From the IMG/VR virus record IMGVR_UViG_3300009705_003818, positions 1-47,335 of that record: DNA of 47,335 bases. The stretch is one strand, 5' to 3'. Origin of the DNA: a virus. A program made the position numbers and the translations under genes. The notes beneath the pieces are model-generated. The model saw only the letters and a program-made list of their open reading frames with translations, was not told the DNA's origin and did not search any database. Positions 6,080-27,664 of this stretch are shown here, piece by piece (position 1 is the stretch's first letter; each line of letters begins with the position of its first letter).

Positions 6080-7330
6080 ATGGCACTGCTAACAGGCGGA
6101 AGCTTTAAAAGAATAAACACAGAAGACATAAAGACAAGAAGAACAAACTTAAATCAGCTTGTCGATATAATTCAGGAAGATATATCTGGGTCTAGTACTA
6201 GACGGACTTACCAAGTTTTTGTCACCGGTGGCGTAGGCCCAGGTGTGACGAGTTCTTTGTATCAGACAGTTTATGATCAAGACTTCACATTACAGACAGC
6301 CAATCCACTGTTTGATATGACTGTTGGCTTGTACGAATCAGGCAGTACAGTTACGAATGCAAAAACAAATACTGACACTGCTGATAAGATGCTATTCAAT
6401 TCTCAGTCACTCATGATGAGAGAGAAAGTCGATATCTACAGACAGCACGCTGCAACTCTGCTTGGAGATTCTACTGATTCTTTTTATGCGCCTTTTAATT
6501 CAACCGACGCCACTAACAGAATCGATGAAGCACTTTTTCTAAACTTCAAGAGGTTGTTCACGCGTGATGGTCTTAAAAGAGAGACATTTGCGACAAAGAT
6601 TTTTAGAAGCGCCTCCGACTGCCAATCCGGCGGCAACGCCATCGGACGATCAAATATTTACGCCACGTCCGAAGACGGCTCTACAATTTTTAGTGATATT
6701 GGCTCTACAAGTACACAAACAATTTCTTTTGGTGGTGCAGTAGGTAATATTGTAAACGCATCTGTTACAAGTGAAGTAGTAGGCCTCATTTTCTATGACA
6801 GAGGCCAAGTTGTCTTGGACATTGACAGAGTTTTCTCAGGATCTCAAGCGCTTTCTGGAACAATTCCCGCGATGTCCATAGCTTCTACAACTCAGGGTGC
6901 GACCATTGCCCAAGGATTCACAGTAATGGGTTCAAATGCAGGTAATCCGGATGCGAAATTAGTTCCTGACTTTCTTGTGTCTTCTTCGATCGACAATATC
7001 GTGGACCACTTTTCCACAACAAGATTCTCTTCAGGAACATTAACAGCAGCAACATTTCAAAACCAGACAAACATCAATTCTACGTTGGTGTTCTGCAGAG
7101 CAACTGCGGACGAATTTAACTTCTCCAGTAATCCAACATTCACAGACTCATCCAACAAATTAGTCGTAATAGACTCCGGCCAAGAAGATACACAGCGAAG
7201 CTTTACATTCCCAACGACTGTAGGTCTTCACGATCAGTTCGGAAATCTTTTGGCAGTAGCCAAAATGTCTAGACCAATAGAAAAGAATGATGAGAAAGAT
7301 GTGACATTTAGGATTCGTCTGGACTTCTAA
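6080..7330 (+). CDS. Virion structural protein sharing a C-terminal module with its neighbour
   Basis: The 416-aa product begins MALLTGGSFKRINTEDIKTR and has an AGGAG ribosome-binding site 7 bases before its ATG. The body is Ser/Thr-rich with long beta-prone segments and no catalytic motif. Its last 30 or so residues (LHDQFGNLLAVAKMSRP, then FRIRLDF) closely resemble the end of the next gene's product (LHDDNLNIVGRAHLAQP, then IKLRMDF). This suggests a common C-terminal domain, perhaps for docking on the same partner. The position among large late genes supports a tail or baseplate-associated role. The exact function is unknown. Confidence 0.72.
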   Translation: MALLTGGSFKRINTEDIKTRRTNLNQLVDIIQEDISGSSTRRTYQVFVTGGVGPGVTSSLYQTVYDQDFTLQTANPLFDMTVGLYESGSTVTNAKTNTDTADKMLFNSQSLMMREKVDIYRQHAATLLGDSTDSFYAPFNSTDATNRIDEALFLNFKRLFTRDGLKRETFATKIFRSASDCQSGGNAIGRSNIYATSEDGSTIFSDIGSTSTQTISFGGAVGNIVNASVTSEVVGLIFYDRGQVVLDIDRVFSGSQALSGTIPAMSIASTTQGATIAQGFTVMGSNAGNPDAKLVPDFLVSSSIDNIVDHFSTTRFSSGTLTAATFQNQTNINSTLVFCRATADEFNFSSNPTFTDSSNKLVVIDSGQEDTQRSFTFPTTVGLHDQFGNLLAVAKMSRPIEKNDEKDVTFRIRLDF

Positions 7331-7345
7331 TGAGGAGCCTAGATA

Positions 7346-9814
7346 GTGGCAATTATAAAGCTCGGCCCTGAGAATTTTCAAAATTATGAGTTGGTCGCAA
7401 ACCCAACGAAGACTTTTGAGTCAAGCTCCTCTGGAGTTACTGGCTCGATTGCCCTCTTTGCAGACGCGTCAACCAGCTTAAAAGATCTAGATCCTACATT
7501 TGGTGTAAGTGAAGAAGGCTATGACGACAACTACATAGACTCTGTTCGTATTGATATCCAAACTGCGTATGCCGATGGCACTTACGACGGCTACGGCGAC
7601 GCGGCAATGCAGACATATCTTGACGCTGTTAATAACCACCCACAAGGCGACCGCCAAAACAAAAGACAGGAAGTTCTAAGATTTATACCGGGCGCCAAAC
7701 CAGATAAGAATTTTCAAAGCAAGCAAGTAATAAAGAAGTGCCTTTTTCCATACTACATAAACGAATTAGAATCTTTAGACTGGGCCTACACAAACTATAA
7801 CTGCTTAAATTTCTTCACAGCGTCCACAGTCCCGTCTGAGTCTGCGCTAATATACCCAGCCGGAACAGGATCAGTTGCAGATCAAGATCTGAATTATTAT
7901 GCGCCCAGCTCGAGCTTTACTTTTGACTTTTTTATAAAACCGAAACTTGGCCCGCTTTTACCTTCTGAGGAGTACAAGGCAGGAACAATACTGCATATGT
8001 CATCATGTTATGCAATAAGTCTAGTCACAGGCTCTTCTCTAGGGCCTAACGGATTGGCCGACAAGTTCAGAATTCTACTACAGCTAAGTCAAAGTGCTGA
8101 TATTAGGCCGTCCTTATGTAATATTGGAGCTTCTGAAGTTACTCATACCAACGGCCCTGACCAGGGATTCCTTTATGCAACGACAGATAATAGCTTATCA
8201 AAGGATGAGTGGCATCATATTACCTTACGCTGGCCTGGAACTTTAGTGAATGGAGGCTCCGGATCTATTGATATCGACGGGGTCAAAAACAAAGAGTTTG
8301 TAATAACATCTGGGACTGTTATGCAAGCAAGTCAATCCGGAGCGACAACTGATGACCCCAACGCTGTCTTTGTAGGAAACTTCTACGAAGGAACCAACTC
8401 AGGCGAACAGGCAATTTCAAGATTCTTTGCCTCCACTGTTGCAGCCAACCAGGGACTAACACCCTTTCCAGGATCAGGGGACGCAGACCCCATAAACATT
8501 ACACTAGGGCACCCACTTCGAGCTGAAGTTCATGACATAAAGATATACAATTCTTACAAGACAGACAAAGAAGTGATAAGTCTTGGCAAAAAAGGCCCTA
8601 CTTCACTCGATCCTGATCTATTGTTTTATGTACCTCCGTTTTTTGTTCAAGAAACACGACCCAGAAATATCCTGCAGACACCGTTTTTCGATACAACCGG
8701 GACGTCAGAAGATCCATTTAATGTCGCCCTGTCGTTTGGAGTAGGCGGCCTCGAAATAAATCTAGAAAACTTTAGCAGAGAGTTTGTTAGAGGAGAGTAT
8801 CCAAGACTTCATAATTTGACGTCATCAATAATCAATGCCCAGGTACAAGAAGAAGGCCTTACCGCCAATGATATTTTGTATGCTACCGGGTCGTCACTAA
8901 AAAGACTTTACACGCTTCTACCATGTGATAACGGAAGGTTTCTACCTGGGTTTAACCTCCTATCAACAGGATCAGATCAGTCTAGTAAGTTTGTTGACAG
9001 CTTTGGTATAACAAGACTTGATTTAGTAAGCTTAGAAGATATGGTGTCTACGGCAAGTCTGCCCACAGGCCTAAGATCACTAGAATCTGTACCTTCTAGA
9101 ACAGTAACCATCGGCGGAACAATGACCTTGCCGGAGGGGATCGCTGCCGATGATGCAAGTGTTCAATATGGGACAGGATCTTTTCTCTTCGATCTTCAGG
9201 GAGCATCACCAGAAGATCCCAGCGTCGCGCCTGGCAGTATATTAACGATCTTGCAAAGAACTGGAGACCCTAGTTCTAATGAAATAGTCATGTTTGATGT
9301 GTCAAACATGTTTTATGGTGATAGAATAAAGAGGGGATCTTTAGTCCTGGAAGATCTAAACCCAACTGGCTCGGCCGACGCATTTACGTTAACATTAAGA
9401 GATGACAAACATGGCCGAATCTATAGAGCTGATACTCCTCTGTCCGGAGCCGCAACATGGAACTCCGTCGGAAATATTATGTATGATGAAGGGCTCATAT
9501 TAATTAAGTCACCTCACCTTCCATTCTTTGGAAAAGAAAGGTTCAAGATAAAGTTTGAAGGAGAAAGATCTGTATATGTTTTCGAAGTATCAATTCCCGT
9601 CAACGAAAATCTTCATAATTCGTCTTCGAACCCGTCCTATAGACAACTCCGTCCATCAGATTACTCTAACGAGAGCGCAACCGACTTTACTTACATTACC
9701 GGTATACAATTACACGATGACAATTTAAATATAGTAGGCCGCGCGCATCTCGCGCAACCGTTCGTCAAAAGAGAGTCAGATAGAGTGGTTATAAAGTTAA
9801 GGATGGACTTTTAG
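7346..9814 (+). CDS. Virion structural protein with a LamG/concanavalin-like segment
   Basis: The gene starts at a GTG with GAGGAG about 9 bases upstream and encodes 822 aa. Residues about 185-345 contain SFTFDFFIKPKLG, an ILLQLSQ strand, and DEWHHITLRWPG followed by a glycine-rich turn and IDIDG. That order is characteristic of LamG/concanavalin A-like jelly rolls, which in phages often bind sugars. The C-terminus (IQLHDDNLNIVGRAHL ... VVIKLRMDF) repeats the terminal module of the preceding protein. The stop codon shares one base with the GTG of the resolvase gene downstream. A host-surface-binding or baseplate-periphery role is plausible but inferred. Confidence 0.72.
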   Translation: MAIIKLGPENFQNYELVANPTKTFESSSSGVTGSIALFADASTSLKDLDPTFGVSEEGYDDNYIDSVRIDIQTAYADGTYDGYGDAAMQTYLDAVNNHPQGDRQNKRQEVLRFIPGAKPDKNFQSKQVIKKCLFPYYINELESLDWAYTNYNCLNFFTASTVPSESALIYPAGTGSVADQDLNYYAPSSSFTFDFFIKPKLGPLLPSEEYKAGTILHMSSCYAISLVTGSSLGPNGLADKFRILLQLSQSADIRPSLCNIGASEVTHTNGPDQGFLYATTDNSLSKDEWHHITLRWPGTLVNGGSGSIDIDGVKNKEFVITSGTVMQASQSGATTDDPNAVFVGNFYEGTNSGEQAISRFFASTVAANQGLTPFPGSGDADPINITLGHPLRAEVHDIKIYNSYKTDKEVISLGKKGPTSLDPDLLFYVPPFFVQETRPRNILQTPFFDTTGTSEDPFNVALSFGVGGLEINLENFSREFVRGEYPRLHNLTSSIINAQVQEEGLTANDILYATGSSLKRLYTLLPCDNGRFLPGFNLLSTGSDQSSKFVDSFGITRLDLVSLEDMVSTASLPTGLRSLESVPSRTVTIGGTMTLPEGIAADDASVQYGTGSFLFDLQGASPEDPSVAPGSILTILQRTGDPSSNEIVMFDVSNMFYGDRIKRGSLVLEDLNPTGSADAFTLTLRDDKHGRIYRADTPLSGAATWNSVGNIMYDEGLILIKSPHLPFFGKERFKIKFEGERSVYVFEVSIPVNENLHNSSSNPSYRQLRPSDYSNESATDFTYITGIQLHDDNLNIVGRAHLAQPFVKRESDRVVIKLRMDF

Positions 9815-16718: not shown

Positions 16719-18680
16719 ATGGCACAACAAGCTGGCTTGTTCACAAGATTAACAAAACTTTTTAGATCAGGCCCTGTAATAAAACGAAGCGTAAGAAACG
16801 TTTCTTCTCAAAAGGCCTCCACTGCACTTGAAGTTTTCAAAAGAGCACACAGCGATGTATATAATAGTACACTGTCTGCATATGGTGCATTTGATAGAAT
16901 GTCCAGGTATTCTGATTTCAGTGAAATGGAAGGAACACCTGAGATAGCATCCGCTCTGGATATCTACGCAGAAGAGACAGTGGCATCTGATGAGCATGGA
17001 AGAGTTTTACACATCTACTCTGACAATAGAAAGATTCAAGAGCTCTTAGATAATCTCTTTTATGATGTATTGAATGTAGAGTTCAATCTTGTTATGTGGG
17101 CAAGAAACCTCTGTAAGTACGGTGACTTCTTTTTGTTTAATGATGTTCATCCTGACTTTGGCGTAATTAATGCCTATCCAATTGCTATAAGTGAAATGGA
17201 AAGAGAAGACGGATTTGACCCTGAAGACCCAATGGCCGTACGCTTCAGGTGGGTAACACAAGGTAACCAAGTTCTAGAAAACTGGCAAGTCTCTCATTTT
17301 AGACTCTTAGGAAACGACGCATTTCTACCATACGGATCTTCTGTTCTGGAGTCAGCACGAAGAATCTGGCGACAGTTAATACTAATAGAAGACGCGATGT
17401 TGGTGTATAGAGTTATCAGAGCTCCTGAGCGCCGAGTTTTTTATATAGACGTAGGTAATGTTCCTCCCGAAGATGTGGCAAACTATTTGGAACAAGCTCA
17501 GACAAGTTTAAAGAGAAATCAGGTTGTAGATAAAGACAACGGAAAAGTTGACTTAAGGTATAACCCACTTTCTGTAGATGAAGACTATTTTCTTCCAGTT
17601 CGTGGCGGAGAGTCAGGAACAAGAATAGACACACTAGCCGGCGGCCAGAATACTGCTGCTATTGAAGATGTTGAATACATACAAAAGAAGCTATTTGCTG
17701 CCTTAAAAATACCAAAAGCTTATCTTGGCTATGACGAAGATGTGGGATCCAAAGCCACACTGGCACAAGAAGACATAAGATTCAGTAGAACTATTCAAAG
17801 AATTCAAAAAACTGTGATATCTGAGATGAACAAGCTAGCAATGGTGCATCTATATTGTCACGGGTATACTGAAGAAGATCTAGCAGACTTTGAGTTAAGG
17901 CTTTCAAACCCGTCCTCAGTCGCACAGCAACAGAAGCTCGAGCTTATACGTGCTAGATTCGAAATCGCCGGCACAGCACCTGAGGGGTCTGTTAACAGAG
18001 GATGGATCCAGAAGAATGTCTTAGGTCTGACCGACGACGAGATCAGGCTCGCTAAAGAAGGAAGAGTCCAGGATAAATTAGAAGATCTAGAAGTAGAGGC
18101 ACAAACTGCTCCTGTCGTATCTGCCCCAGCCGGTGCACCGCCGGATGCTGGTGGCGACGAGGCACCTGCCGAAGAAATGGGAGACGAAGCCGGAGAAGAG
18201 GCCGCCCCCGAAGATCTTTTCGCCGCTGACAAACCCGAAGGTTCTCTTTTGACAGCTTTGCCTTCCGATCCCGACAATGACGAGGATTTCGATCTAGAAA
18301 TAGACGACGAAGTAGTAAGACTCTCCATAAAAGACTTAGATGCGCCTATAAAAGCAGAGAAACAAATAAAAAATGCTTTTGGACAAACCATTAATAAGTC
18401 TAGAAAAGTTCGAAATGGGCCAGCAACAACTCATATGCCCGATTTCGTAAAAATGACGGGAACTGGCCGTACTGCTAGGCACCAAGATACATCTAACAAA
18501 CCTTTTGATAATGATTTTTTGAAAGATCCGTTTTCAGAATCACATGTGTCTTCGCCTCCTAGACTAACTTTTGATTTAGTAAAGACGTTAGGACGCATGA
18601 CGAACAAGATAGGTATAGATAGAACAACATTATTGTCTGAAGATAAAGATCCAGATGGAGGCCCGAATGGCGAAGCATAA
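16719..18680 (+). CDS. 20: Portal protein (T4 gp20-like)
   Basis: This 653-aa product matches the T4 portal type: an N-terminal region with YSDFSEMEGTPEIASALDIY and AEETVASDEHGRVLHIYS, a central core (APERRVFYIDVGNVPP), and the conserved GSKATLAQEDIRFSRTIQRI near residue 343. It forms the dodecameric ring at the unique vertex, the docking site for terminase and neck and the initiator of prohead assembly. It is about 130 residues longer than T4 gp20. The extra length is a C-terminal tail with an Ala/Pro/Glu/Asp-rich, probably disordered linker (about 465-510) and a basic terminal part. GAGGA precedes the ATG. Confidence 0.95.
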   Translation: MAQQAGLFTRLTKLFRSGPVIKRSVRNVSSQKASTALEVFKRAHSDVYNSTLSAYGAFDRMSRYSDFSEMEGTPEIASALDIYAEETVASDEHGRVLHIYSDNRKIQELLDNLFYDVLNVEFNLVMWARNLCKYGDFFLFNDVHPDFGVINAYPIAISEMEREDGFDPEDPMAVRFRWVTQGNQVLENWQVSHFRLLGNDAFLPYGSSVLESARRIWRQLILIEDAMLVYRVIRAPERRVFYIDVGNVPPEDVANYLEQAQTSLKRNQVVDKDNGKVDLRYNPLSVDEDYFLPVRGGESGTRIDTLAGGQNTAAIEDVEYIQKKLFAALKIPKAYLGYDEDVGSKATLAQEDIRFSRTIQRIQKTVISEMNKLAMVHLYCHGYTEEDLADFELRLSNPSSVAQQQKLELIRARFEIAGTAPEGSVNRGWIQKNVLGLTDDEIRLAKEGRVQDKLEDLEVEAQTAPVVSAPAGAPPDAGGDEAPAEEMGDEAGEEAAPEDLFAADKPEGSLLTALPSDPDNDEDFDLEIDDEVVRLSIKDLDAPIKAEKQIKNAFGQTINKSRKVRNGPATTHMPDFVKMTGTGRTARHQDTSNKPFDNDFLKDPFSESHVSSPPRLTFDLVKTLGRMTNKIGIDRTTLLSEDKDPDGGPNGEA

Positions 18681-19494
18681 TAAGAAGCGCAACGTCGGCC
18701 TTTTGCATGAGCAATTGGTACGACACGCTAGCGAAATGACTGTAGAAGGGATGAAGAAAAAAACATCTCAAACTGTCAACATTCTAATGAAGCATTATTC
18801 TAAAGAATCAGAACTCTTAAAGGAGTTTAGACTTTTTAGTTCATTGATACACACAAATGTTGAAAGTAAAGAAGTTGCTAAAAGAATCATAGATGAAAGT
18901 AGAAAAGCCTGCGAGAATCATGATCCTGTTGCTCTCATGAAAGAAAAGTCTGCCTTGATCAAAGACGTCAATCACCTAATAGGTAGAAAAGACTTCTATA
19001 ATCAAAGAGTAAAAAATTACAAGCTGTTCACTACAGTTCAGACACTATTAAATGAGTGGCGAGGAAAGACAAGTCTGAGCCCAGAAGAAAGAGTCAGATA
19101 TGAGCTTGTCTTAGAGGCACATCTAACAAACACACAAGATAAGCCCCATCTACAAAAAGCTGAAAATGCCAACCCGCTAGTTCTGAATATCATGATAGAA
19201 AAATTTAACAAGAAATATGAGTCGTCACTTGACAGAGGGCAAAAAGAGTTATTAGAGAGCGCGCTCTCAGGTGATGACGATCTCGTAATAGAGAAGTCAA
19301 ACAAAATAAAGCAAAGAGCCTCAGATGCGCTGAAAGCTTTCTATTCATCTTGCGATAACAGCGTCTTGAATTCCAAAAAAGCTTTGCTGGAACAGAGATT
19401 AAAGAATTATCAGCCTGACAAAACAGATAAGTCCATATCACAGGCACTTATCTTATCTGACTTACTAAAAGAATTAGAGGACAAAGATGTCTAG
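18667..19494 (+). CDS. Head-region protein between portal and prohead protease
   Basis: The start is set at 18667 (MAKHNKKRNVGLLHEQLVRH) because GGAGG at 18657-18661 is 5 bases from it; an earlier in-frame ATG at 18655 has no such site. The product is 275 aa, highly charged and mostly helical (KEKSALIKDVNHLIGRKDFY, then NYKLFTTVQTLLNEW). It overlaps the portal gene by 14 bases and the protease gene by 8 bases. T4 encodes prohead core proteins 67 and 68 in the same interval, so a scaffold or core role is likely by synteny, although the size differs and no sequence match is evident to me. Confidence 0.75.
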   Translation: MAKHNKKRNVGLLHEQLVRHASEMTVEGMKKKTSQTVNILMKHYSKESELLKEFRLFSSLIHTNVESKEVAKRIIDESRKACENHDPVALMKEKSALIKDVNHLIGRKDFYNQRVKNYKLFTTVQTLLNEWRGKTSLSPEERVRYELVLEAHLTNTQDKPHLQKAENANPLVLNIMIEKFNKKYESSLDRGQKELLESALSGDDDLVIEKSNKIKQRASDALKAFYSSCDNSVLNSKKALLEQRLKNYQPDKTDKSISQALILSDLLKELEDKDV

Positions 19495-20101
19495 TAATAG
19501 AAAATTATTAACAGAGTGGCTTCCGTTCGAATACTCAAAAGACATGTTAAATGAGTCGAGAGAGAGTAACGAAGGAAAAATCATGCTGAAGGGAATATTG
19601 CAAAAAGCAGATACCCTCAATCAAAACGGAAGAGTATACCCAAGAGTGATCCTTGAGAGAGAAGTAAGAAACTATCAAAAGTTTATTGCCGAAAATAGAG
19701 CCCTTGGAGAATGTGATCACCCTGACTCTTCTGTCGTAGAGTTGAAGAATGCATCACACATTATAAGAGAAGCTTATATGGACGACGGTGTATGTTTTGG
19801 AGTCGTGGAGCTTTTAGACACACCCTCCGGAAAAATACTACAAAGTTTAGCAGAGTCCGGAGTGACTCTAGGAATTTCTTCAAGAGGCGTAGGGTCAACT
19901 AGCAGAGAAGGCGACTACGATGTTGTTCAGGATGACTTTCAGTTGATTTGCTGGGACTTTGTTTCAGAGCCCTCAACTCCAGGTGCCTTCTTAATGAGAG
20001 AAGGGAGAGACTTTTCAAGAGAAGATCTCGACAGACACTTTACAAAAACTGATAGAATAGACAGGGTAATGAACGACATACTGTCTTGGGAGAATGAATA
20101 A
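19487..20101 (+). CDS. 21: Prohead core maturation protease (T4 gp21-like)
   Basis: The 204-aa product carries the catalytic motifs of the herpes/T4-type prohead serine protease: His78 in GECDHPDSS and Ser131 or Ser132 in LGISSRGVG, followed by the conserved ICWDFVSEPSTPGA segment. The length is close to T4 gp21 (212 aa). It is expected to assemble inside the prohead, to activate itself, and to cut scaffold, capsid protein and other proteins after (I/L)xE sites. The MCP and several neighbouring proteins contain such sites. The gene overlaps the previous one by 8 bases and shares one base with the next ATG. Confidence 0.94.
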   Translation: MSSNRKLLTEWLPFEYSKDMLNESRESNEGKIMLKGILQKADTLNQNGRVYPRVILEREVRNYQKFIAENRALGECDHPDSSVVELKNASHIIREAYMDDGVCFGVVELLDTPSGKILQSLAESGVTLGISSRGVGSTSREGDYDVVQDDFQLICWDFVSEPSTPGAFLMREGRDFSREDLDRHFTKTDRIDRVMNDILSWENE

Positions 20102-21001: not shown

Positions 21002-21289
21002 ATGTCAAAAAGAGTTAGAAAGCTGACTTCCGATTATCTTAAAAAAATGATAAAAGAAGAGGCCAGAAAGTTACAGATCGAAACGTCAGATCCTATGTTA
21101 GCCGGAATTGACGACATTGAGAAAGTAGAGGCTGAAGAAACTGAGGCCAGCGACTTAGCAGACTCATTAGAGAAAGATATTGATTATCTCAAGGTTTTAA
21201 AAATCCATGAGTCTAAGTTAGTCTCGAATCTTAAGCGACTTCGATCTGCGAAAACCAGGCTAAGAAAAAGAATCACAAAAAGTATTTAA
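21002..21289 (+). CDS. Small coiled-coil head-region protein
   Basis: This 95-aa protein begins MSKRVRKLTSDYLKKMIKEE, has an acidic middle (EKVEAEETEASDLADSLEKD) and ends in a basic coiled coil (ESKLVSNLKRLRSAKTRLRK). The N-terminal basic-amphipathic helix with LKxxIKEE resembles the leader of the preceding gene's product. A strong AAGGAG site lies 9 bases before the ATG. It may be a prohead core or scaffold component like T4 gp67 or gp68, which are also small and highly charged. No enzymatic motif is visible. Confidence 0.65.
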   Translation: MSKRVRKLTSDYLKKMIKEEARKLQIETSDPMLAGIDDIEKVEAEETEASDLADSLEKDIDYLKVLKIHESKLVSNLKRLRSAKTRLRKRITKSI

Positions 21290-21298
21290 GGAGACAAA

Positions 21299-21769
21299 AT
21301 GCCTACTCATAAGCAAGGAACAGTATCCTCACCTGTCACTGACAAGGACCTTGGAAGGGCTGGATCGACCGAGTTGCAAACAATATTTGCAACGAGCCCA
21401 ATCTATACAGGAGACTTGTCTGCTGACTCGATAAAGGCAGAATATCAAGCTGCAGTCTTGGACGGAGAAATTAACGACGGAGGCCACACTTTTGGAACAT
21501 TCCAGACTGATTATGCTGGTGCTCCTAAAATGGCTGATGTAGAGACCGGCGGAGGCGGCGCACCAGCATCTGCGTTTGTCCCTAATCCATCATCACCAGG
21601 TCAAGGCAGTACATCACCCACAGATCAGCCAGAAGCTCCTGACGGATTCGGATCAACACCTTCTGCTACTCCCTTCTCCGGAGTGGGGTCGCAATTGGAT
21701 CCGCAAGAATCTTCAGCAGCAATTTCAGGACAGACCTTGGGTGACTATGGGTTTGGAAAGAGCTCTTAA
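21299..21769 (+). CDS. First and most divergent member of a four-gene paralog cassette
   Basis: The 156-aa product begins MPTHKQGTVSSPVTDKDLG. It shares with the next three proteins an N-terminal QG, an aromatic-xxxPxY segment (FATSPIYTG), a central histidine-glycine block before a phenylalanine (GGHTFGTF), and the AFVPNPSSPGQG motif (against PFVPNVASPI in the next gene). Overall it is low-complexity, rich in Gly, Ser, Pro, Ala and Asp. AAGGAG precedes the ATG. Its function is unknown; placement between core and scaffold genes suggests a head component. It is the shortest of the four. Confidence 0.65.
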   Translation: MPTHKQGTVSSPVTDKDLGRAGSTELQTIFATSPIYTGDLSADSIKAEYQAAVLDGEINDGGHTFGTFQTDYAGAPKMADVETGGGGAPASAFVPNPSSPGQGSTSPTDQPEAPDGFGSTPSATPFSGVGSQLDPQESSAAISGQTLGDYGFGKSS

Positions 21770-21787
21770 TTAGAAGGGGGGTAACCG

Positions 21788-22333
21788 ATGTCAATTAATC
21801 AAGGAACATTCGACTTGCCAAATGGCGACGGCAAGATGGGAGAGTCAGACCAGATAGCACTCAAGCTTGTCTATCCCAACACACCTTATTATTCTACGAC
21901 ATTACTAGGCATAATCGACAGGGCCACACAAGCTGTTGCGTTTAAAGGCCATCTCAATGCCACCGCCACCGAGCACGGAAATGTAGACTTTTCGTTGACG
22001 AGTCTGAATTACGATGAAAACGATGTTCCTGGCCTAGCAGACCTCGACGGAAACATCATACTAGCAAATGTGTCATCAGTAGCCGGTGATGGTTTGCCGG
22101 CAACGCCATTCGTTCCGAATGTGGCTTCTCCGATTGCGCCTGAGGGAACAGTATATACAAATTACTCTCAGCAGCCGGCAGCCACCCCCGGGTCAGTCGC
22201 AACACTGCTCAAGACTTCTCTACCACCTGGCATGGGACTCGGCTCCGGCCTAAACCCATCAGACTCCGCAGCAATTATCGCTGCCCAAGACTTCGACACT
22301 ATCAACCTCGAAGATGGAAGCGGACAGATATAG
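21788..22333 (+). CDS. Second member of the tandem MxxNQG paralog cassette
   Basis: This 181-aa protein starts MSINQGTFDLPNGDG and has YPNTPYYSTT near residue 29, EHGNVDFSLTSLNYDENDVP in the middle, GLPATPFVPNVASPI, and a Gly/Pro/Ser-rich C-terminal part. The same order of motifs occurs in the next two proteins with about equal length. The ribosome-binding site is the purine run AAGGGGGG. There are no cysteine clusters, membrane segments or enzymatic motifs. A virion head role is inferred from its neighbours. Confidence 0.72.
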   Translation: MSINQGTFDLPNGDGKMGESDQIALKLVYPNTPYYSTTLLGIIDRATQAVAFKGHLNATATEHGNVDFSLTSLNYDENDVPGLADLDGNIILANVSSVAGDGLPATPFVPNVASPIAPEGTVYTNYSQQPAATPGSVATLLKTSLPPGMGLGSGLNPSDSAAIIAAQDFDTINLEDGSGQI

Positions 22334-22336
22334 AAA

Positions 22337-22885
22337 ATGTCTACGAACCAAGGAACATTTGATCTGCCAGTCAATGGAAACGAAGGAGGATTAGGACAAT
22401 CTAGCCAGACACGTCTGAAGATTGCATATAAGAACGCTCCTTACCACTCTACGACTGAGTTGGCTCCGCCAATTACTAGAGCGACTGAAAAGACAAAATT
22501 TGGAAACTATGCATGTCTTCTTGCAGAACCATCCACCGGACTCACCCATGGAAATCCAGACTTTGCAACAGTTTCTTTAGTCTATAGTGACAATGATGTA
22601 CCAGCTTCCGCCGAGGTTCCAACCTGCACCTCGCTTCCTTATGAAGCCGGCCGACCATCCTTATCCTATGGACCAGATGTTTCTTCACCGATAGTCGACA
22701 AAGGATCTGTTTTCACAGGCCCTTCACAGAAACCAATTGACGGATCTGCTGGATCCTTATCGACAACTCCACCAACTTTTCCAGATGTAACAGCCAGATA
22801 TCTGAAAGCAGTCGATCGAATCGATGGTCTGGTTTTGAAACAAGGCCCTGCCACCACCGGCGGGACCCCAGTAGGCGAGGATTAA
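22337..22885 (+). CDS. Third member of the tandem MxxNQG paralog cassette
   Basis: The 182-aa product begins MSTNQGTFDLPVNGN and keeps the family order: YKNAPYHSTTEL, THGNPDFATVSLVYSDNDVP, and SYGPDVSSPIVDKGS. The gap to the previous gene is only 3 bases and the Shine-Dalgarno sequence is weak, so translation may depend on readthrough from the upstream cistron. Unlike the second member it has a more basic segment near its end (ARYLKAVDRIDGLVLK). Function is unknown; probably a head component. Confidence 0.72.
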   Translation: MSTNQGTFDLPVNGNEGGLGQSSQTRLKIAYKNAPYHSTTELAPPITRATEKTKFGNYACLLAEPSTGLTHGNPDFATVSLVYSDNDVPASAEVPTCTSLPYEAGRPSLSYGPDVSSPIVDKGSVFTGPSQKPIDGSAGSLSTTPPTFPDVTARYLKAVDRIDGLVLKQGPATTGGTPVGED

Positions 22886-22889
22886 TCTT

Positions 22890-23438
22890 ATGCCAACAAA
22901 CCAAGGAGTATTTGATCTACCGGTAAATTCAGATGGCACTGAGGGGAAAAGCAAAGTCGAAAGGCTTAAGACAGGCTTTCCAAACACCCCTTGCTACTTG
23001 AACGGATCCCTCAAATATCTCCAGGCTCTAACGTTGTATAACGCAATTAAAGCAGATGAGGCTCACGAAAACACAGACTTTGCAGGTGTGAGCACCTTGT
23101 ACGCAGCAAACGGCGCGCCGCTGATTGCTGTGGATGGCGACGTCCCCGTCTCCGTCAACGATGTCGGCGATGGGCTTCCTGCAACTCCTTTTGCGCCTAA
23201 TGTGGCTTCACCAATTGTACGGACAGTCGGAGAGACTTTTTCAAGCTACTCTGACGTTACAACCGTCGACGCTGGAGGCGGAGGCCTTGATAAAACATCA
23301 GTTCCGTACGGATCCGGAGATGGATTCGAGCTCACCCCGCACGCAGCTTCTCGGGCAAATGATTCTGATAATCCTCTGGCGACCGAGTTTATAGACAAGA
23401 ACGGCACGGTGCGCACTGCAATTGATTTTAAGCAGTAA
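22890..23438 (+). CDS. Fourth member of the tandem MxxNQG paralog cassette
   Basis: The 182-aa product begins MPTNQGVFDLPVNSDG, with FPNTPCYLNG, HENTDFAGVSTLYAANGAP, and GLPATPFAPNVASPI. The last motif is nearly identical to that of the second member, and the DNA is similar there as well. The C-terminus differs from its paralogs (PLATEFIDKNGTVRTAIDFK). GAGG lies about 10 bases before the start. As with the other members, no function can be assigned beyond a probable virion head role. Confidence 0.72.
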   Translation: MPTNQGVFDLPVNSDGTEGKSKVERLKTGFPNTPCYLNGSLKYLQALTLYNAIKADEAHENTDFAGVSTLYAANGAPLIAVDGDVPVSVNDVGDGLPATPFAPNVASPIVRTVGETFSSYSDVTTVDAGGGGLDKTSVPYGSGDGFELTPHAASRANDSDNPLATEFIDKNGTVRTAIDFKQ

Positions 23439-23447
23439 AGTATCATA

Positions 23448-24035
23448 ATGAAAAAATCCTTAACTCAAGTGATGGAAGTCTTACACTATGACGATAGAAA
23501 GGGCTTGGGATACGGTACTTTAGATAATCAATTTCATGACTTGCGGAAATCTGGGCATTCGTTCCCATACTTAGATAATGATCCGTACGAAGATGAAGAG
23601 TTTGAAGACGAAGAAACAGAAGAAGCGATAGGTTATAAAATAATTCAACCCATGAAATACGATCCATTTTCTGATAGAGGAAGAGACCAGCTCTATTTTT
23701 CGGCAGGAGCCTCTGGCCTGGCCGATTGTTTTGCTCGACCAGATGATGTTTTGAGAGAGATTGCTGCCTTAGGAGATTCAATGTCGCCGATTCCGAGCCT
23801 TTATAAAAATAAAAATGCATCAGGAATTGGACATTCTGGATCTTCTTTTGCCTCAGGAGTAAATTCTTTTAAAAGAACAGGATCTAAGAGAGGGTACTCC
23901 TCTTCACCCCCCAGATTAAAAAAACACAAAAGTGAACGTGCCGAAGATGATCCCATAGATAATCTAGAGGATCTCGCAGATAAACAATCATTGTCAAGTG
24001 GAAACTTTTCGACAAGAAAAGACATATTTAATTGA
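23448..24035 (+). CDS. Unknown head-region protein with acidic stretch and basic tail
   Basis: This 195-aa protein starts MKKSLTQVMEVLHYDDRKGL. It has an acidic run (DPYEDEEFEDEETEEAIGY, about 45-63), a more ordered middle (GRDQLYFSAGASGLADCF), and a basic Ser-rich segment (KRGYSSSPPRLKKHKSE, about 144-160), ending RKDIFN. The short SSPPRL string also occurs in the portal C-terminal tail, which may be chance. Its stop lies 17 bases before the scaffold ATG. Alternation of strongly acidic and basic segments is typical of prohead core proteins, but no family is recognised. Confidence 0.6.
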   Translation: MKKSLTQVMEVLHYDDRKGLGYGTLDNQFHDLRKSGHSFPYLDNDPYEDEEFEDEETEEAIGYKIIQPMKYDPFSDRGRDQLYFSAGASGLADCFARPDDVLREIAALGDSMSPIPSLYKNKNASGIGHSGSSFASGVNSFKRTGSKRGYSSSPPRLKKHKSERAEDDPIDNLEDLADKQSLSSGNFSTRKDIFN

Positions 24036-24052: not shown

Positions 24053-25675
24053 ATGAACAAAACCCTTTATGACGAAGCAGTTGCAGATGCACACAAGCTT
24101 CGAGAGCTTGCTGAAGAAACAGCTAAAAACAGAATAGTTGAAGCTGTCATGCCTGAAATAAGAAATCTAGTAAATAGAAGAATTTTAGGCGAAGATCTAG
24201 AAGACATGGAGTCAGAAGAGGACGATTATATGTCCGATGAAGACTTAGGTGTTGATTTAATGGATCTGTCCGGCCAAGGCCCCAGTCAATCAGACGAAAC
24301 CCATGTAGACTTAAGTACATCTGGTAACTCTCCCAACGTAGGGATAGAAGTTACGGGCGACGTCAATATCAATTTAGAAGTAGAAACTGAAGAAGATTCA
24401 GATGAGCTCGTTTTAAGCGACCAAATGGCGGAAGCCTTGACGCGTCTTATTAAGGGTGAAGAAATTTCTAAAAATGAAACTTTGGATGAGAGAGTGGAAG
24501 CTCTTTATTCCAGGGTTAACAAGCTTTCTGAGGTGACTAGAATTGTTGAGGAATCACAATTAAATGATTCTCAGAATAGAAGAATTGAATTAAGTTTATG
24601 GCATTGTGTACGAGAAGCAATCAAATTGCGTGCAGAGGTCATAATTACAGAATGTAAGACTCAAGAGAGGCTTGAGCGTAGATTGACAGAAACAATTAAG
24701 GAGATAATAGAAATGTCTAAGTCGAATCGCCGTAATATCTTCGATTTCCTCTTCGAAGAACAATACAAAGAGAGTAAGACCGAACTCGAGGAAGCGGAGC
24801 TCAGCCTCGGACTCAGTGATGAGGAACACACAGAGTTAGCAGATGCAGAAGATGCAGATGCTGTTGAGGGCGCCCTTGAGGATATCTTGGGTAATCTAGA
24901 ACTTTCATTAGCCCCCGAGGCTGAAGAAGGTGATGGTGCCGATGAAGAGCTTGATGCTGAGCCATCTGAAGAGCCAGCTGAGGAAGAGGATGATGAAGAA
25001 TCACTTGACCTTGGTGAGGCTGATATGGAGGAGATGTACGAGATCGATGAGTCGATGCTTAGAAGGGAACTTCGTCGTATGACCCGACTCCATGAAGAGG
25101 CTGCCGACGAAGCTGATGCATTCGGTGGTGGTGAAGTCCAAGGTGATGTTATTCTAGATATTGATGAGGAAGATCTTATCAACGCACTAGAAGATGAGCT
25201 TGGAAGCCAAGACATCGTATCAAACAAGCCAATGGTCGCCGTAGAATCACGACGTCGATCAAGCACTCGTCGTTCATCACGACGTCCAGACCGAAGATTG
25301 TCTGAGGCTCGTCGAGAAAACGTCAAATATAAGCGAGCTGTATCAGGTCTTAAGAAGCAGCTCGTCGAGATGAATCTATTTAATGCTAAGCTTCTTTATG
25401 CAAACAAGCTTATGCAAAACACGAACCTTTCAATGAAGCAGCAGAAGGCTATTGTCGAGGCACTAGATAACGCCAAGACCCTTCGCGAAGCTAAGCTTCT
25501 CTTCAAGAGTTTATCGGAGTCCCTCTCCCGACGATCTCGAGGTAAGAAATTGTCAGAGGGATCATTACGGACGCTCGGATCGTCTTCCAAATCAACCCGT
25601 TCGGCTCAGCCGAAACCCAGTGGTGTTGAGGTGGATCGATGGGGAGTTCTCGCCGGCTTGTACGGCAAAGACTAA
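24053..25675 (+). CDS. 22: Prohead scaffold protein (gp22-like), long form
   Basis: The start at 24053 (MNKTLYDEAVADAHKLRELA) is preferred over a TTG at 24032 because AAGGTGAG lies directly before it; the product is 540 aa. Long Glu/Asp-rich stretches dominate residues 50-340. The C-terminal domain contains NLFNAKLLYANKLMQNTN followed by KQQKAIVEALDNAKTLREAK, the helical signature of T4 gp22-type scaffolds. It should form the core around which the capsid protein assembles and then be degraded by gp21. T4 gp22 is about 270 aa, so this is twice as long. An internal ATG at 24713 with its own ribosome-binding site and a codon-usage switch suggest a second, shorter product. Confidence 0.85.
   Translation: MNKTLYDEAVADAHKLRELAEETAKNRIVEAVMPEIRNLVNRRILGEDLEDMESEEDDYMSDEDLGVDLMDLSGQGPSQSDETHVDLSTSGNSPNVGIEVTGDVNINLEVETEEDSDELVLSDQMAEALTRLIKGEEISKNETLDERVEALYSRVNKLSEVTRIVEESQLNDSQNRRIELSLWHCVREAIKLRAEVIITECKTQERLERRLTETIKEIIEMSKSNRRNIFDFLFEEQYKESKTELEEAELSLGLSDEEHTELADAEDADAVEGALEDILGNLELSLAPEAEEGDGADEELDAEPSEEPAEEEDDEESLDLGEADMEEMYEIDESMLRRELRRMTRLHEEAADEADAFGGGEVQGDVILDIDEEDLINALEDELGSQDIVSNKPMVAVESRRRSSTRRSSRRPDRRLSEARRENVKYKRAVSGLKKQLVEMNLFNAKLLYANKLMQNTNLSMKQQKAIVEALDNAKTLREAKLLFKSLSESLSRRSRGKKLSEGSLRTLGSSSKSTRSAQPKPSGVEVDRWGVLAGLYGKD
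24698..24703 (+). promoter_or_regulatory. Internal ribosome-binding site inside the scaffold gene
   Basis: AAGGAG lies 9 bases before an in-frame ATG at 24713, whose product would start MSKSNRRNIFDFLFEEQYKE and run to 25675 (about 320 aa). Arginine codon use changes at this point: by hand count 11 of 16 codons are AGA/AGG before it and 3 of about 26 after it. The short form would be close to T4 gp22 in size. It would be a nested scaffold comparable in logic to lambda Nu3 inside gene C. It is seen in sequence; use of the site is inferred. Confidence 0.5.
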
Positions 25676-25708: not shown

Positions 25709-27607
25709 ATGTCTAAGTCTTTTTCATTAGATCAGTTGACTGAAGGGATTCGCCAGAGACATCTGGGAACTCAGAATCGTCAACTAATAGAGAAGTGGTC
25801 CCGAACGGGTCTTCTTCGCGGGTTGGACGGCGTGAAGCGCGAAAATATGTCCCGCCTACTTGAGAACCAAGCTTCGCAAGCCCTTAGAGAGTCATCGGCT
25901 CTTTCAGGCGGAAGCGTGGGTCTCGCGGATTCTGGCAATATGGCCGGTTTCTCAAACATTGCGTTCCCAATTGTTCGCAGAGTATTCGGTGGTCTGATCG
26001 CTAACGATCTCGTTTCGATTCAGCCAATGAGCCTTCCTTCTGGACTGCTCTTCTATCTTGATTACACAAGAGGTAATCTTGCTGGCGAAGGATATGAAAC
26101 ATACGGATCAGGTTCATCACTCTACAACTCACCTGTTGGTAAGGGCGTTCAGTCCGGATCCCAGGCAGTTGGCGGAATGTATGACCTTGCCGGCCAAGGT
26201 TTCACTCGCGTTCATCACGTGTCAGATACTGTTGCTATCACAGCTTCAGGTTCTTTCGGTTCAACAACAGCTATTGATACCGATACTGCTCACAAAGCAG
26301 CAACACTGCATACCACAGGCACAGACGGAAAACTGCTTCAGTTCGATCCGCAGCTAACTTCACTCATTGAAGGAAGCAAGCCAACTGCAGGCGGCGCCGT
26401 TGGAACAAACGTATACACCGCGGTGTTTATTACGCTTGATGACACCGACTTCGCAAACTCAGACACTACACTCGTCAAAGAGTGGACTGTTCCAGTTGCT
26501 GGTCATGCTAAGCAGGTTTCAGCAGATGTTCAGGCCGGCGTCGCCGGTAACGTTCGTCGTTTGAATGAGCTTGGAACTTTCGTGAACAATACGTGGACTC
26601 CGAAGCCTCTGATTGAGCTAGGTGCATCTAACGCTGTTCTCAAGGTCATCATCTCTGGTGGGATTGGTACGAACGTTATGGGCGTCGGTCACGGTGGTGC
26701 TGGTGGGCAGGCAAACATTGATACGGTTTCATTCCCTGTTTCAGCTCAGCAAGTCTCAGCTAACGGTGGAAGCCTTGTGGTTCCCGCATTTGAGTCAGAC
26801 TTCGGTACGGACCCATCCCCATCGATCCCAGAGATTGATATCAAGGTGGAATCCCTCGCAGTCGTGGCCGAAACACGTAAGTTACGTGCTCGTTGGTCAC
26901 CAGAGCTTGCTCAGGACTTGAATGCTTATCACAGCCTTGACGCAGAGGTCGAGCTAACTCAGATCCTGTCGGAGCAAATTGCTCTAGAGATCGATCGTGA
27001 GATTCTCAACGATCTTCTCACACAGGCTGGGGCAGCTAACTACTACTGGTCACGTGCACCAGGTAAGTTCGTTAATAAGGAAACAGCAAAGGAAGCAGTG
27101 TCTTCCAACTCGCTGGCTCCAGGACCGAGCTTCCGAGGCACAGTCCGTGAGTGGTACGAGACACTGGTTGAGACCATCATTGATGTTGCTAACCAGATTC
27201 ACCGTAAGACTCTCCGCGGCAGCGCCAACTTCATCGTCGTAGGACCTGATGTTGCTACTATCCTGGAGGCTTCAGTGATGTACAAGCCAAACTACAGCCT
27301 TGACGGTGACGGACAGGTTAGTGGTATGGTTCTCGGTGCTGACAAGGTCGGTACATTGAGCAGTCGTTTCACGGTCTATAAGGATCCTTACTTCCCACGC
27401 AACAAGGTTCTTGTTGGGTACAAGGGCGGTAGCTACCTTGAGACTGGTTACGTCTACGCTCCGTACGTTCCGCTTATCGTTACTCCAACGATCTTCGCTC
27501 CTGAGGACTTCACCCCGCGTAAGGGTGTCATGACTCGCTACGGTAAGAAGATGGTTAGAAGTGACTTCTACGGTACAGTGACCTGTATGGATATGAACAT
27601 AATCTAA
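25709..27607 (+). CDS. 23: Major capsid protein (T4 gp23-like)
   Basis: The 632-aa product begins MSKSFSLDQLTEGIRQRHLG and contains FSNIAFPIVRRVFGGLIAND and VSIQPMSLPSGLLFYLDY, the strongly conserved N-arm and early core of T4-type HK97-fold capsid proteins. The C-terminal half holds KLRARWSPELAQDLNAYHSL, and the end region has LVGYKGGSYLETGYVYAPY. A likely prohead protease site is ALRE|SSAL after residue 61, close to the T4 cut after 65. Compared with T4 gp23 (521 aa) it has about 110 extra residues, probably the Thr/Gly-rich segment at about 169-355. AAGGAG precedes the ATG. Codon choice is CGT/CGC and GGT-rich, unlike most neighbours, as expected for the most expressed protein. A strong terminator follows. 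Confidence 0.96.
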   Translation: MSKSFSLDQLTEGIRQRHLGTQNRQLIEKWSRTGLLRGLDGVKRENMSRLLENQASQALRESSALSGGSVGLADSGNMAGFSNIAFPIVRRVFGGLIANDLVSIQPMSLPSGLLFYLDYTRGNLAGEGYETYGSGSSLYNSPVGKGVQSGSQAVGGMYDLAGQGFTRVHHVSDTVAITASGSFGSTTAIDTDTAHKAATLHTTGTDGKLLQFDPQLTSLIEGSKPTAGGAVGTNVYTAVFITLDDTDFANSDTTLVKEWTVPVAGHAKQVSADVQAGVAGNVRRLNELGTFVNNTWTPKPLIELGASNAVLKVIISGGIGTNVMGVGHGGAGGQANIDTVSFPVSAQQVSANGGSLVVPAFESDFGTDPSPSIPEIDIKVESLAVVAETRKLRARWSPELAQDLNAYHSLDAEVELTQILSEQIALEIDREILNDLLTQAGAANYYWSRAPGKFVNKETAKEAVSSNSLAPGPSFRGTVREWYETLVETIIDVANQIHRKTLRGSANFIVVGPDVATILEASVMYKPNYSLDGDGQVSGMVLGADKVGTLSSRFTVYKDPYFPRNKVLVGYKGGSYLETGYVYAPYVPLIVTPTIFAPEDFTPRKGVMTRYGKKMVRSDFYGTVTCMDMNII

Positions 27608-27632: not shown

Positions 27633-27664
27633 AAGGCGCCTCTTCGGAGGCGCCTTTTTTATTT
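27633..27664 (+). terminator. Rho-independent terminator after the capsid gene
   Basis: An 8-base-pair GC-rich stem (GGCGCCTC at 27635-27642 and GAGGCGCC at 27647-27654) closes a stable TTCG loop and is followed at once by six T residues. It ends the head transcription unit immediately after the major capsid gene. Confidence 0.92.

Follow-up and report, generated by a model that had tools for sequence, protein, structure and literature searches.

The scaffold gene described here very probably encodes two nested proteins. In the window, i.e. the whole stretch of 47,335 nucleotides of the virus record IMGVR_UViG_3300009705_003818 that was analysed, one open frame of an uncultivated far-T4-type phage would give a minor long form of 540 amino acids and a more abundant short form of 320 amino acids with the same C-terminus. 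The suggestion in the earlier note that one frame yields two scaffolds, one long and one short, gained strong support from the comparison with relatives, in which the internal Shine-Dalgarno (SD) sequence and start codon are conserved, the long frame is kept open and codon usage changes at the internal start. The region from 24697 to 24715 reads T-AAGGAG-ATAATAGAA-ATG and is in frame with the ATG at 24053; the positions given earlier for AAGGAG and ATG (24698 to 24715) were thus correct. The features of the locus are listed in Table 1.

Table 1. Features of the head module and of the putative nested scaffold gene in the window
Feature	Positions	Strand	Evidence or remark
gp20 portal protein	16719..18680	+	Pfam PF07230, E=5.5e-79
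Prohead protease, S77 family, own separate gene	19487..20101	+	Pfam PF03420, E=5e-23
195-aa neighbour directly 5' of scaffold	23448..24035	+	homologues at the same place in most relatives
Predicted long scaffold frame, 540 aa (541 codons with stop)	24053..25675	+	ATG at 24053; one open frame in 81/82 complete relatives
Conserved N-terminal helical segment of long form, about residues 1-46	24053..24190	+	alignment A1; AlphaFold helix 3-45; match to Immutovirus scaffold residues 3-45
Second helical module of long form, up to internal SD	24407..24709	+	profile M hits; helices 123-133, 144-166, 172-198, 204-219
Internal SD AAGGAG (TAAGGAG from 24697)	24698..24703	+	9 nt 5' of internal ATG
Internal start codon ATG (putative)	24713..24715	+	start kept in 70 non-redundant loci (69 ATG, 1 GTG)
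Predicted short scaffold frame, 320 aa	24713..25675	+	codon usage shifted towards capsid gene
Short-form N-terminal leader MSKSNRRNIFDFLFE, ends L-F-E, possible prohead-protease site	24713..24757	+	[LI]xE within 20 aa in 68/70 loci
Best-conserved C-terminal domain, common to both forms, KKQLVEMNLFNAKLLYANKL...	25313..25666	+	alignment A2; profile C; Immutovirus match
gp23 major capsid protein	25709..27607	+	Pfam PF07068, E=1.8e-76

The head module of the window contains T4-type gp23 and gp20 and also a T4-type terminase, and its capsid protein fell outside the T4/cyano-T4 branch of the capsid tree, as expected of the far-T4 group, whose capsid genes were reported in viromes of marine as well as freshwater origin (PMC4360716). 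The order portal, protease, scaffold position and capsid is that of the T4 head module (20-67-68-21-22-23). The scaffold gene sits between the S77 protease and gp23 genes; it ends 33 nt 5' of the latter and is separated from the former by extra genes.

Relatives were gathered by searching viral contigs with each half of the protein separately, and the SD was left out of the query. After removal of copies, 82 loci with a complete frame were available, including the window. The site was readable in 70 non-redundant loci (scaffolds less than 80% identical), and all 70 had an SD and a start codon at the homologous junction. AAGGAG at a spacing of 9 nt was present in 49 loci, CAGGAG in six, AGGGAG in three and ATGGAG in two, while the spacing was 6 nt in seven loci (AAGGAG in four and CAGGAG in three); TTGGAG, ACGGAG and AAGGGG occurred in one locus each. 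Protein homology located about 50 of the 70 sites, while the roughly 20 most diverged ones were placed partly by GGAG itself and are hence less independent, although the peptide context of the site aligns in these loci as well. Among 962 other in-frame ATG codons of the same genes only 21, at scattered positions, had GGAG 4-10 nt upstream.

The peptide encoded over the SD varied by clade. It was IKEM-x-M or IKEMxxM in the group of the window, and QEN(S/T)-x-M, KENSDM, MENTGM, TENTGM, QEKKM, KEIKEM or KETTM in others. As the peptide varies and GGAG stays, the nucleotide signal is kept and not the peptide. A G-ending codon followed by GAG was used in all 69 loci with GGAG, compared to 21 expected from the amino acids and the codon usage of each gene. 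Judged from these comparisons, the internal SD/ATG is under selection at the nucleotide level. That the long protein alone is made, and that IKEM..M owes its conservation to the peptide, which might be a prohead-protease site or the end of a coiled coil, is very unlikely. The junction I-K-E does fit the T4 gp21 motif L/I-X-E (PMC9026906), and IKEM is conserved as a peptide in the window's own subclade. However, other clades have QENS, MENT, TENT, QEKK or KETT and yet keep GGAG and ATG, the use of AAG GAG departs strongly from expectation, and a constraint on the peptide predicts neither the codon step nor the low RNA structure described below. Such a constraint on IKEM was rejected because the peptide is swapped in other clades while GGAG stays.

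The change in codon usage was evident in the window from the arginine codons, of which AGA and AGG (AGR) made up 11 of 16 before 24713 and 3 of 26 after it, compared to 5 of 28 for the capsid gene. The counts on both sides agreed with those in the earlier note, which had also picked the split point on which the Fisher test (p=4e-4) is based. Its statement that codon choice then matches the capsid gene holds for the low share of AGR, but not for the favourite CGN codon, as CGA was used 11 times here and twice in the capsid gene. Most other genes of the window are rich in AGR. Across the relatives, pooled AGR codons decreased from 50% before the internal start to 28% after it.

For a comparison among relatives, each codon was scored against the phage's own capsid gene and the scores were centred per amino acid, so that amino acid composition cannot cause the effect. 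Of 56 non-redundant loci, 54 had a better codon fit downstream of the internal start than upstream of it (mean +0.18). As a control, other long ORFs from these loci were divided at the corresponding fraction, and 58 of 108 showed such a rise (mean +0.006). Uniform coding of the long scaffold throughout the relatives, which had been named beforehand as evidence against an internal start, was thus not what was found. On average the fit was at a low over the 40 codons that precede the internal start, jumped at the start and rose further over about 100 codons. The best change point of individual genes scattered around the start, with a median of +27 codons and the middle half of the values between -3 and +81. 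Selection on expression predicts such a step if ribosomes translate the downstream half more frequently than the upstream half. The minimum of the codon fit, at 24593-24712 in the window and likewise in relatives, looks as if an open ribosome-binding region dictates codon choice there.

The region around the internal start also had the properties of an initiation site. In 67 of 70 loci the 40-nt folding energy at the internal ATG was weaker than the average of the gene (mean z +1.2), and in all 68 loci compared the internal SD paired more strongly with the anti-SD than did the SD of the long form. The median pairing energies were -8.8 for the internal SD, -5.6 for the long form and -8.5 for the capsid gene, which puts the internal site on a par with the capsid gene. 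In the window, the SD upstream of the long form is weak (AAGGTGAG). SD-like codon pairs within genes have been proposed to pause ribosomes, and the motif might merely slow elongating ribosomes between two folding domains. We regard this as the least probable of all explanations considered, since it accounts neither for the constant distance to a conserved start codon, the GTG in place of ATG and the low RNA structure nor for the lasting rise in codon fit downstream.

A transcript of its own for the short form, produced from an internal promoter instead of internal initiation on the long mRNA, is unlikely. A sigma-70-like sequence matching at 10 of 12 positions was present at 24516-24543 in the window. 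However, the total number of promoter-like matches equalled that in shuffled sequences (7 vs 6.3), at least 10 of 12 positions were matched upstream of the internal start in only 2 of 69 relatives, and the T4-late motif TATAAATA was present in one. A promoter or T4-late motif common to the relatives was not found upstream of the internal start. Even with a separate transcript the same internal start codon would be used.

The N- and C-terminal domains were encoded in one uninterrupted frame, mostly of 400-650 codons, in 81 of the 82 complete loci. The exception was locus L063, which had insertions or deletions in the upstream half, while its relative L061 (81% identical) was intact. In L063 (positions 6500-8125) the upstream frame is broken but the short frame and its start are preserved, which may reflect an assembly error or the loss or decay of the long form. 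The comparison with related phages that the earlier note had proposed gave no case of two separate genes for the two halves among the 82 complete loci, as would be required also for an ancient fusion. The outgroup, Immutovirus, already has the N- and C-terminal segments in one scaffold protein. These two observations effectively exclude the recent fusion of two genes that had been put forward as the other reading of the site. By that reading, the codon step would mark the seam between sequences of different origin, and the SD/ATG would be a relic of the second gene's start, which agrees with a sharp codon step and a complete start signal at the junction. The same open frame, SD/ATG and codon step nevertheless recur in relatives of 28-60% identity, and a relic would decay, whereas this site appears to be under selection at the nucleotide level. 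A recent fusion is therefore extremely improbable.

In the capsid-protein tree, the 56 placeable loci with the internal start formed one side of a branch supported at 99/96. Their neighbours were Immutovirus, Mel-JY01, L026-L028 and LR756508. Among the T4-like groups known from earlier work, the clade belongs to the far-T4 range (PMC4360716). Scanning of Immutovirus, Mel-JY01 and S-RSM4 for internal starts gave weak candidates, and the Immutovirus genomes are nearly identical to each other; their sole candidate, GGAG with a spacing of 8 nt to ATG, is at codon 145. The Immutovirus scaffold (Flavobacterium phage immuto) is annotated as 'DNA polymerase phi-like protein' and is encoded just 5' of the capsid gene. 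Its C-terminus (residues 294-413) and its N-terminal 43 residues are homologous to the scaffold of the window, but with 413 amino acids it is shorter and lacks the middle module. One locus with the same internal start, L185, comes from a contig of 108,871 bases within a Halobacteriovorax metagenome-assembled genome, which may be a lead to a host or a binning error.

Both predicted products contain the acidic linker and the C-terminal domain, while the N-terminus of 220 residues is confined to the long form. According to a weak AlphaFold model (pTM 0.38), this N-terminus consists of two helical parts flanking a disordered acidic stretch; the N-terminal residues of the long form are conserved across relatives (alignment A1). 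Neither half of the frame matched a family in Pfam or PHROG, and no protease match was found inside the frame with these databases. The C-terminus had been called gp22-like, but T4 gp22 showed no detectable sequence similarity to the scaffold (hhalign probability 0.3%). Homology to gp22 was rejected on these grounds, and the label 'gp22' would refer to the gene position and the acidic, coiled character. The role of the short product as a scaffold is likewise deduced from the position of the gene.

In phage lambda C/Nu3, the scaffold is made from an internal in-frame start, and the long and short products share the scaffold C-terminus. The gene in the window resembles it in its putative internal in-frame start and shared C-terminus. 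However, the extra N-terminus of the lambda protein is a protease, while that of the window is a helical segment of 220 amino acids that is not expected to be related to it in sequence, and the S77 protease of the window has its own gene, about 4 kb further upstream. The lambda C, Nu3 and portal proteins have been described as one initiator complex (PMC3224144). The protease/scaffold gene of Mu-type phages has an in-frame internal scaffold start, with an SD 8-9 nt before it and at the same relative position in diverged relatives, as inferred from few genomes (PMC4378225). The long product of Mu comprises protease and scaffold, whereas the long form of the window is free of a protease. Of the features of nested scaffold genes, the clade of the window has the conserved in-frame ribosome-binding site and start, but the N-terminal part of the window's long form is not a protease. 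The T4 annotation places an internal start in gene 21 rather than in gene 22, and the scan used here for internal in-frame SD/starts gave none in T4 gene 22. Endolysin genes for two polypeptides also consist of one frame with an in-frame internal start, giving two isoforms that share the C-terminus and can assemble together (PMC9430671), but these are lysis enzymes unrelated to the scaffold in sequence or role.

The short form starts with a leader that may be cut by the protease or target the protein to the core. The motif [LI]xE was present within the first 20 amino acids in 68 of 70 loci, compared to 49% of windows in the same glutamate-rich proteins, and the glutamate was most often at position 15. 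L/I-X-E is the motif of the T4 prohead protease, gp21 (PMC9026906), and in T4 a short N-terminal sequence targets the internal proteins IPII and IPIII to the capsid (PMC9958956). The start of the window's capsid protein, MSKSFSLDQLTE, resembles the leader. Short basic leaders ending in L/I-x-E were seen at several head-module genes; they are MAKHNKKRNVGLLHE (18655-19494), MSSNRKLLTE (19487-20101), MSKRVRKLTSDYLKKMIKEE (21002-21289), MSKSNRRNIFDFLFE (24713-25675) and MSKSFSLDQLTE (25709-27607), and may be a common targeting signal that is cleaved by the protease.

From these features we infer that initiation actually occurs at 24713. Ribosomes starting at 24053 would produce the minor protein of 540 amino acids, and the strong internal SD at 24698 would direct others on the same mRNA to the ATG at 24713 and thus to the more abundant scaffold of 320 amino acids; this ratio is deduced solely from SD strength and codon fit. 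Through the common C-terminal assembly domain the long form would co-assemble with the short form into the prohead core and bring its helical N-terminus into it. There, going by the logic of the gene, the N-terminus might bind the portal, or else another core partner. The leader of the short form, ending in L-x-E, could be cleaved by the separate S77 protease of the phage.

We somewhat favour the wider view that, in a broad far-T4 clade, the core is built of two nested isoforms, the long one being a core organiser or portal adaptor rather than a protease fusion, and that the internal start creates the cleavable leader of the abundant isoform. If true, this would be a general, undescribed strategy by which members of the T4 superfamily other than T4 assemble their heads. 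The literature searched, which included few subscription journals, gave no description of a nested scaffold in phages of the T4 type, and the papers found gave no account of far-T4 head construction. The comparative evidence makes a scaffold of two isoforms very likely and names the exact residues, providing an example of a nested scaffold gene beyond the protease-scaffold fusions of lambda and Mu. Gene callers will overlook what is probably the most abundant scaffold product throughout the clade. A codon step together with a conserved in-frame SD offers a cheap and general signature for hidden isoforms in metagenomic phages.

Some further features of the locus were observed. Between the protease and scaffold genes, four successive ORFs (156, 181, 182 and 182 aa) at 21299-23438 appear to be tandem paralogues with the common motifs QGTFDLP..., LKxxFPNTPYY..., DVPA... 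and FVPNVASPI; they may encode decoration or core proteins. The gene of the 195-aa protein at 23448-24035 is rich in AGR codons; the identity of the protein across relatives was about 28-42%. A strong terminator-like hairpin with a T-run was located at 27633-27656, immediately 3' of the capsid gene.
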